Shown here: piece by piece, positions 31,980 through 33,403 of the stretch
Layout: each line of letters starts with the position of its first letter
How positions within the stretch are numbered: the first letter of the stretch is position 1
DNA from: Torymus aiolomorphi
Taxonomy: Eukaryota > Arthropoda > Insecta > Hymenoptera > Torymidae
Assembly: GCA_036365515.1 (NCBI GenBank)
Contig: CM070876.1
Location: 92,005,800-92,069,799, forward strand
DNA length: 64,000 nucleotides
Direction of reading: 5' to 3'
Notes under the pieces: generated by a model
What the model saw: only the letters and a program-made list of their open reading frames with translations
Databases searched by the model: none
What the model was told of the DNA's origin: nothing
Translations under genes and position numbers: made by a program

Positions 31980-32125
31980 ATGAAACAGGACTTATGTTGA
32001 CATCGCGTGTTAATATTTATGTAAAATTAACACGTAAAAATTATGCGGACGTCCGCATAAGTACCGCAAAGTCAGCATAAGTCTCGCACCAGTTCAGAAA
32101 GTGTCTGCATAAGTCACGTTCCATA
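31980..32125. mobile_element. Word-core element D (word GCATAAGT), core missing
   Basis: Bounded by the imperfect inverted repeat ATGAAACAGGACTTATG and CATAAGTCACGTTCCAT, between TA tracts. The word GCATAAGT occurs four times plus variants (ATTATGCGG, GACTTATG). It shares terminal text with element C at 14.4 kb, but the 16-mer core is not present. Confidence 0.55.
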
Positions 32126-32210
32126 TATATATATATATATATATATATATATATATATATATATATATATATATATATATATATATATATATATATATAT
32201 ATATATATAT
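32126..32210. repeat. (TA)n microsatellite
   Basis: About 85 bp of TA repeats between elements D and E. Confidence 0.95.
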
Positions 32211-32450
32211 AGACATGCTTATCGGGGTTTATGAGGCCCAACACTGTATATTAGTACCTACAGCCCAGAGTTCCCTATAGCAAGTGACTAAAGAAATAAT
32301 GGACCCTGGGGTTATAGACTCTAGGTCGGGCCGCATAAACCCCTATATTTAGGAATATTATGAACCCGGGCCGCATAATCAAAATCGGGCTCGATAAACC
32401 CCTATATATAAAAAAACGGGCTTTATAAACCCCTTTAGAGATATGTATAT
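32211..32450. mobile_element. Word-core element E (word GGGCCGCATAAACCCC)
   Basis: The core lies in reverse at 32285-32300 (TGACTAAAGAAATAAT) within a longer conserved stretch: CTGTATATTAGTACCTACAG, CCCAGAGTTCCCTATAGCAA before it, and CCCTGGGG, GACTCTAGGTCGGGCC after it. To the left is GGGGTTTATGAGGCCC. To the right are four word copies (GGGCCGCATAAACCCC, GGGCCGCATAATC, GGGCTCGATAAACCCC and GGGCTTTATAAACCCC), inverted relative to the left copy. Confidence 0.65.
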
Positions 32451-32459
32451 ATATATATA

Positions 32460-32785
32460 TTTCTGTTCACCGCTATGATTCAGGACATATGCATGTTTTC
32501 AGGACTGTACTGAATTAGGAATATGTTTACCGCTATCTTTCAGGACATTTTTGTATTATTCAGGACATTTAGGGTTTCTTTCACTACGTTTTTTTCCGTA
32601 AAATTTTTCCGAAATCAACGTAAAATACTGGGGAACTGAAAGGGGGCGCCGCAGGCATCGTGGTGTTAGTCAACACCCTGAGGGATATTATTTCTTTAGT
32701 CACTTATATACTGTTTAACGTTTTATACCTACTTCTATTGCAGAAAACCTGTAGGTGTCCTGGAAGGTAGCGGTGTACTAAGTTA
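32460..32785. mobile_element. Word-core element F (word ACCGCTATNNTTCAGGACAT)
   Basis: The core ATTATTTCTTTAGTCA lies at 32687-32702, preceded by CACCCTGAGGGAT. Copies of TTCAGGACAT and ACCGCTAT lie to the left (about 32468, 32498, 32531, 32550 and 32562). The right end has GTCCTGGAA and TAGCGGT in inverse orientation. GGGGGCGCCGCAGGC upstream of the core is shared with element B (GGGCGCTGCAGGC). Confidence 0.62.
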
Positions 32786-32890
32786 TATATATATATATAT
32801 ATATATATATATATATATATATATATATATATATATATATATATATATATATATATATATATATATATATATATATATATATATATATAT
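32786..32890. repeat. (TA)n microsatellite
   Basis: About 105 bp of TA repeats between elements F and G, the longest TA tract in the window. Confidence 0.95.
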
Positions 32891-33128
32891 AAAGACCTAT
32901 AAACGTTATTTCTGGTAATCTACAGGGTCCTATAGTTTATCTCTTCAGAGTTCCCTATATAAGCGCGTGACTAAAGAAATAATATCCCTGGGGTGTGGGA
33001 CTAATACCACGTCCCGGAAATAACAGTTGCAGACACAGATTTTCCGGGACGTCCCGGAAAAAACAGCGCGTCCCGGAAATAACAGCGATGTACAGTGTAA
33101 ACGTCCCGGAACGAACCGTTGCAGATAA
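32891..33128. mobile_element. Word-core element G (word GTCCCGGAAATAACAG)
   Basis: The core lies in reverse at 32968-32983, with CAGAGTTCCCTATATAAGCG before it and ATCCCTGGGGTGTGGG after it. The word GTCCCGGAAATAACAG and close variants occur about five times on the right side. The left side has the inverted fragment CGTTATTTCTGG. TA tracts lie on both sides. Confidence 0.65.
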
Positions 33129-33177
33129 ATATATATATATATATATATATATATATATATATATATATATATATATA
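33129..33177. repeat. (TA)n microsatellite
   Basis: About 49 bp of TA repeats between elements G and H. Confidence 0.95.
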
Positions 33178-33403
33178 TTTCTTTTACCAGATTTATGGAG
33201 CCCTTTTATACACATGAGCATATTTATGGAGCCCGTTTTCTTTTATGGAGCCCGGGTCCCATAAAATATTCTTATACGGCGTTTATGGAGCCCGATCTAG
33301 AGTTTCTATACCCAGAGAGGGATTATTTCTTTAGTCACTTGTATACGGGAACTCTGGGCGTAGGTACTAATATACAGGGATGGGCTCCATAAAGGGGTTA
33401 AGT
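33178..33403. mobile_element. Word-core element H (word TTTATGGAGCCCG)
   Basis: The core lies at 33322-33337, embedded in CCCAGAGAGGG before it and CACTTGTATACGGGAACTCT, GGGCGTAGGTACTAATATAC after it. This is the same long core as in E, in the opposite orientation. The word TTTATGGAGCCCG occurs four times to the left (33192, 33220, 33243 and 33280) plus CCCATAAAA, and in inverse (GGGCTCCATAAA) on the right. Confidence 0.68.

Follow-up and report, generated by a model that had tools for sequence, protein, structure and literature searches.

What kind of element keeps one short sequence fixed while the words around it are exchanged and multiplied? The question is raised by a row of small loci, most of them separated by TA tracts, within a 64-kb stretch of DNA (the window), where the original prediction described five neighbors, D to H, built around a common core and filled with repeated words. 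That observation as a whole is confirmed and also holds beyond the region first described, where three further loci (A, B, and C) were added; all results below are based on these eight loci within the one window. The explanation toward which we lean is that A-H are non-coding, MITE-like cut-and-paste elements inserted in TA microsatellites, each carrying an array of sites for a dimeric binder that would be rewritten per subfamily while the core stays invariant.

The window has 30 ORFs of at least 130 aa, and the 10 of these that were searched for domains include matches to mariner transposases, a PIF1-type helicase, and gypsy-type reverse transcriptase, integrase, and gag; none of the 10 was recognized as a transposase for the elements described here. 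An endonuclease/reverse transcriptase ORF pair is read as a probable LINE, and large satellites fill the window alongside the transposon ORFs. Among the best 120 of 593 matches to the gypsy reverse transcriptase, the first named ones come from ants (Camponotus japonicus and Lasius niger, 58% identity); Trichogramma and Cotesia rank lower, and the seven top matches are nameless. This one transposon protein points to a probably hymenopteran host. An inverted repeat (13671-13804 and 19620-19755; 136 columns, 96% identical) spans about 6 kb that include the PIF1-helicase ORF and the B-C cluster.

Units, Borders, and the Constant Core

Five units follow one another uninterrupted, and none of the eight is nested in another. 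With strand set by the core (for D, by its match to C), they are D (31982-32122, minus), which has the word and first four slots, or word positions, of C; E (32212-32445, minus), with four forward slots detected, the core, and one inverted word at its head end; F (32460-32783, plus), which has a longer layout and is B-like upstream of the core; G (32892-33128, minus); and H (33179-33404, plus). The TA tracts that border them measure 24 bp left of D (31958-31981), 88 bp between D and E (32123-32210), 14 bp between E and F (32446-32459), 108 bp between F and G (32784-32891), 50 bp between G and H (33129-33178), and 52 bp right of H (33405-33456). Elsewhere in the window lie A (7355-7590, plus), which carries the word of C and D, has no TA tract, and is uncertain in its ends, and the pair B (13876-14214, plus) and C (14281-14493, minus), separated by 66 bp of TA (14215-14280). 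A tract of at least 14 bp, in a range of 14-108 bp, adjoins 12 of the 16 unit ends, a count that depends on our having placed unit borders at TA tracts; both A ends, and those of B and C that face away from each other, have TA-rich surroundings with no long tract.

The core itself, ATTATTTCTTTAGTCA, is 16 bp long and is present in the window in six exact copies and one with a single change. Four exact copies sit just where they had been claimed, at 32285-32300 (minus, in E), 32687-32702 (plus, in F), 32968-32983 (minus, in G), and 33322-33337 (plus, in H), and the search added exact matches at 7463-7478 (plus, in A) and 14104-14119 (plus, in B) and the one-change copy at 14383-14398 (minus, in C); D has words and no core. 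When up to three mismatches are allowed, the core has 10 matches in the window against a shuffle mean of 2.44 and maximum of 9. All six exact cores have AGGG zero to three bases upstream, and the joint pattern AGGG-N(0-3)-core is matched six times in the window and never in 100 shuffles. An ungapped alignment of the seven loci leaves 15 of 16 core columns invariant and the remaining one at 6 of 7, and across the 25 columns to each side agreement is 2-5 of 7 in all but two, position -5 (7 of 7) and position -3 (6 of 7). The pairs A-C, B-F, F-G, E-H, E-G, and G-H are linked by similar flanks, to one side of the core or to both, at a level that 0 to 6 of 500 shuffles reached; A and C have the same core as the others even though their flanks match those of most other loci no better than shuffles do. 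The longer core claimed for E and H is confirmed by 38 of 38 aligned bases downstream and 31 of 35 upstream (gaps excluded), and the two units align at 77.6% over 312 columns, TA tracts included.

A role of the core in RNA or as a hairpin was considered and rejected. Rfam gave no family at the gathering threshold and the tRNA search gave nothing, no common stem around the seven cores was apparent by eye in DNA folds, and only D went beyond shuffles among the six pieces folded, one each from D, G, C, and E and two from H. None of 200 shuffles folds as well as D taken whole (z -4.65); its hairpin (32006-32034) falls where C has its core. The folds bear as well on a reading of the loci as a host regulatory or structural locus, either an enhancer cluster or a non-coding RNA with transcription-factor sites. 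Enhancers typically carry site arrays with palindromes, which counts for this reading, yet the five of six pieces that fold no better than shuffles, the lack of an Rfam match, the placement of the units at three separate places of a repeat-filled window on varying strands, and the TA tracts that bound most of them all tell against it and leave it improbable.

Outside sources of the core were also rejected. For a prokaryote source, the extended core with AGGG had no match in the prokaryote contig collection. For a viral source, the 16-mer was found in 65 viral contigs, one copy each, and within 250 bases of these 65 sites there was no TA run longer than 8 bp and never more than four 9-mers at three or more copies. 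An 18-mer from E/H matches two viral contigs, the paired A/C/D word matches no viral contig, and the 16-mer was not found on either strand in 5.39 million published full texts. The layout of A-H, which we take to resemble iteron origins, invites an origin-like reading, with iteron-type initiator sites at fixed helical spacing, an inverted operator pair, the core, and an AT-rich unwinding tract, all derived from a replicating virus, plasmid, or satellite that integrated at TA runs; it gains from the core-near ends of B/C and of F/G, which face each other over the 66- and 108-bp TA tracts. We nevertheless hold it to be improbable, given that no TA run over 8 bp lies within 250 bases of the 65 viral sites, that none of the 10 ORFs searched of 30 was recognized as a viral or initiator gene, that the nearest helicase ORF, of PIF1 type, lies about 3 kb from C, and that D keeps its words without a core.

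Differing Words on a Shared Spacing

The claim that words are multiplied within each locus holds throughout: each of the eight loci has more 8-mers in at least two copies than any of its 300 dinucleotide shuffles, and for 8-mers in at least three copies this is true of seven, with D equal to the highest shuffle. They had also been called locus-specific, and here the result is divided. Words do differ between groups, but A, C, and D share ACTTATGCAGAC, E has GTTTATGCGGCCC and H its variant TTTATGGAGCCCG, and AAGTTTCYRGGA of B, CTTTCAGGACA of F, and TTATTTCCGGGACG of G are related; the words are thus subfamily-specific, with about three word families across the eight loci. Of the 19 places in the window that match the A/C/D word with up to two mismatches, 17 fall inside A, C, and D; the H word is matched 10 times, nine times inside E and H; the F word, with 32 matches against 23 expected, is not confined to its locus. 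TTATG is common to the A/C/D and E/H words, and the words of E vary among themselves at three positions.

Slots within one locus agree on average in 8.5-11.3 positions of a 12-base comparison, loci of one family in 7.3-9.9, different families in 5.3-7.4, and random sequence in 5.1, where the families were defined from the very comparison that then scores them, three weak B and two weak F hits were dropped, and the inverted E slot was added by eye. Because slots agree within a locus and much less between families, the words do not look simply point-mutated, and they seem to have changed in concert while the spacing stayed. The counter-reading that came with the original prediction, ordinary diverged copies of one longer element with point-mutated words, therefore survives in part: the six pairs linked by flank similarity make A-H look like subfamilies of one element type, and point mutation alone does not seem to account for the words.

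Word centers recur near 0, +31, +50, and +62 (inverted), often with another at +90, including in loci whose words differ. Measured from slot 1, with inverted words marked <, the centers are 0, 31, 50, 90, and 191< in E; 0, 31, 50, 61<, 90, and 189< in H; 0, 33, 52, 64<, 92, and 196< in G; 0, 31, 51, 64<, and 90 plus three weaker hits in B; 0, 32, 52, 64<, 104, 136, and 173< in C; and 0, 32, 52, 64<, and 113< in D. A and F fit this grid only when slot 1 is treated as lost, so that the first detected word is taken as slot 2 and the centers become 32, 52, 64<, 103, 135, 168, and 182< in A and 31, 50, 60<, 91, 111, and 132 plus two far inverted hits in F. The slots were first noticed in the same eight loci in which their coincidence was then tested, with all detected word hits and a null of random placements that keeps the order of orientations. 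At most 24 of 1000 placements were as good in 16 of 28 locus pairs, and coincidence stands out in 11 of the 21 pairs from different families. For the other 12 pairs (A with all but C; E-F, E-C, E-D, B-F, F-C, and F-D), 43 to 989 of 1000 were as good.

Two views that do not start from the words point to similar distances. Word-free autocorrelation, run with no shuffle control, gives lags of 31, 40, 59, and 90 in E and H, with B and G close, and of 20, 32, and 52 in C and D. Both strands of the 64 kb were also scanned for slots at 0, +31, +50, and inverted +62, and this word-blind scan returned 22 places, with G, H, and D as the best three and with C seventh and E eighth, both on their own words and on the expected strand. 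The scan missed A, B, and F, 14 of its 22 places fall in CAG, TA, and satellite repeats away from the loci, another three sit at the TA borders of E, G, and C, and its null (10 block shuffles of one strand, 0 hits) is lenient in that it destroys such repeats. Slots 3 and 4 are palindromic in all eight loci, least so in E, and in G they make a perfect 22-bp palindrome; of 500 shuffles, those as good number 0 in D and G, 1 in B and H, 5 in A, 8 in C, 9 in F, where the test was made at the place of the already assigned slot pair, and 24 in E.

How far the likeness of slots extends bears on the main rival to a bound protein, gene conversion among slots. Under it, A-H would be ordinary diverged MITE copies with internal repeats homogenized by conversion or slippage and with spacing merely inherited and no binder involved. 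This is somewhat unlikely in our judgment, and it has several observations on its side: common descent of several pairs by flank similarity, the alignment of E and H over their whole length, the three variable positions among the E words, and the continuation of likeness left of the word in several slots of E, B, and F, as conversion tracts would give. Opposed to it are the sharp ends, at 12-13 bp and in both orientations, of the 11-14 bp over which slots are alike in A, C, D, and H (G is fairly sharp), as seen with the slot lists of the 12-base comparison minus the inverted E and F slots. Distances between slots, moreover, hold within 1-3 bp though the spacers have no clear similarity between loci. 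The spacer comparison covered six loci (B, C, D, E, G, and H) and two spacers, with a lowest value of 84 of 1000 shuffles among 15 pairs for spacer 1 and of 32 of 1000 among six pairs for spacer 3, and with more than 100 of 1000 shuffles as good in 14 of 15 and 5 of 6 pairs; it is a weak test, since even E and H, homologous elsewhere, have no spacer similarity. The unsharp edges in E, B, and F and the weakness of the spacer test slightly lower the odds of the favored reading and slightly raise those of gene conversion.

Ends and Probable Mobility

We infer mobility of A-H from several features, among them their ends. For the inverted ends by which MITEs are judged, D, E, F, and H match better than at least 992 of 1000 shuffles, B is marginal with 53 of 1000 as good, and G (311), C (644), and A (762) are no better than chance. 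The clear unit ends sit in TA runs, which mask target-site duplications. The B-(TA)33-C cluster occupies one arm of an inverted repeat, and the other, paralogous arm (15400-15600, reversed) matches its left flank to 13877 and picks up its right flank at about 14838; in place of B-C and the adjoining 350 bases it has a short TA-rich stretch. The absence of B-C from this arm rests on two local alignments and could be a deletion.

The outer ends of B and C (13871-13889 and 14478-14496) form a perfect 19-bp inverted repeat despite the differing words, and B-TA-C might have moved as a single unit. The roughly 350 bases beside C (14495-14850), which are likewise absent from the arm at 15400-15600, end in GCGCGAAGCGCG...CTAG before T, with a hairpin preceding CTAG; we take this to resemble a Helitron end, and the segment looks like a short Helitron-type insertion. 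For the D-H array as a whole, an empty site was sought and rejected: sequence like its right border stands at three satellite edges that have short TA runs, and its left border gave only low local scores of 18-19 there. At these edges (41604-41634, 46344-46378, and 61713-61741), TTAATCCGGAAGTTTGA (TTAATTCGG at 41604) comes after a short TA run; they resemble the sequence just right of H and are element-free. Two more word arrays, of GGAGCGGC and CCCCTCCTCAG types with 11/22-bp periods, lie at 7081-7313 and 15649-15840 and have a TTATTTTGAGGAG stretch in common (81% over 59 bp); they are possibly a second word-core family. A lies between the first of them and a GTCCCTCCGCATT array at 7694-7810.

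Proposed Mechanism and Significance

In the explanation that we favor, cut-and-paste elements with rewritten site arrays, non-autonomous DNA elements of about 140-340 bp would insert into TA microsatellites and accumulate end to end as a result. Each would carry an array of sites recognized by a DNA-binding protein, most probably a transposase or its accessory protein. The sites at about 0, +31, and +50 point forward, and one at about +62 is inverted and makes a palindrome with the third; often there is a site near +90, and in most loci a further inverted site near the opposite end. Spacings of about 31, 20, and 11 amount to nearly whole turns of the helix, and the protein may bind the palindrome as a dimer and the array cooperatively along one helix face. 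The bound array would then pair both ends for excision and for insertion at TA. That sequence changed as a set and length was held suggests such a cooperative array and a single binder of shifting specificity: in each subfamily, selection would replace the site sequence in concert, following a binder of altered specificity, with the spacing held. The invariant 16-bp core may act as a further cis site, recognized by a host factor or by a conserved part of the transposase. Only tentatively do we go further and propose a type of mobile element defined by a fixed core and slot geometry whose slot sequence is rewritten with each binder of new specificity.

If the grid occurs genome-wide, it would provide many replicates of one nucleoprotein layout with differing site sequences, and one could trace directly how a DNA-binding protein and its multi-site target co-evolve, the invariant core pointing to a second conserved partner. 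Such elements would be a natural record of multi-site protein-DNA recognition changing its code while keeping its architecture. They would also carry modular TA-microsatellite arrays, found described only in plants in the portions of the literature available to us, over to an insect.

Comparison with Known Systems

The closest counterparts in arrangement are the SaTar elements of guayule and rice, described in the available parts of their report as non-autonomous, (TA)n-flanked, and lined up in uninterrupted end-to-end arrays of unrelated families, with lengths of about 400-1700 bp, terminal inverted repeats of 40-250 bp, and 10-bp target-site duplications outside microsatellites (PMC5907723). 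A-H are likewise non-nested, uninterrupted in D-H, and at TA tracts in 12 of 16 ends, A being without a tract, but a constant core with exchangeable word slots was not found described for SaTar in those parts (PMC5907723). Elements of the SaTar/MULE kind are marked by duplications of 9-11 bp outside microsatellites and by a MULE-related transposase. A preference for TA microsatellites is also reported for plant MuTAnT (PMC4486113) and the mMITEs of pineapple (PMC8449440), both related to Mutator by target-site duplication or transposase, and for the plant elements TAFT and Micron; the accessible text on these four does not describe the word grid. In the accessible text of an arthropod MULE survey, TA microsatellites appear just in the reference list (PMC13359780).

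Among insect elements, the sources as available describe DINE-1 with a 13-bp subTIR pair, a GTCY microsatellite, and a 3' hairpin, mini-me with a conserved core and a TA repeat (PMC2374699, PMC4067079), and ATon families with weak end similarity, differing interiors, and insertion at a single AT (PMC3422177). These are short and non-coding like A-H, and the word grid was not found in what is available on them. As to the DINE-1/Helentron marks, two adjacent GTCY units occur in none of the eight loci, and of the five loci folded (D, G, C, E, and H) D alone folds beyond shuffles. As judged by titles and the beginnings of abstracts, no comparable elements were found in the literature on Hymenoptera.

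The word arrays have other relatives. En/Spm (CACTA) elements have asymmetric subterminal motifs, direct and inverted, that form palindromes, are thought to be bound by TNPA-like proteins, and diverge between subfamilies, according to the available portion of the source (PMC2613891). A-H share the asymmetric motif array with palindromic pairs, and differ in that the terminal repeats are conserved in CACTA, whereas in A-H an internal part stays constant and it is the termini that vary. CACTA occurs in the first 25 bases of 1 of 16 unit ends (left of A, whose ends are uncertain) and in no end pair. Elements of the hAT superfamily have an 8-bp target-site duplication and a hAT transposase. The hAT element Hermes, in the part of its description at hand, has subterminal repeats and a palindromic pair bound by several BED domains (PMC10368747). 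Subterminal repeats and a palindromic pair are features of A-H too, but the Hermes sites are 4 bp and are arranged differently at its two ends. By this analogy A-H may work like a CACTA or a hAT end, with membership shown for neither and the test for CACTA termini failing. A constant internal core, a constant slot geometry, and an exchangeable slot sequence were not found together in the literature searched, as far as its texts were available; TA-targeted arrays, in plants, and changing subterminal motifs, in CACTA elements, are each already known, separately.
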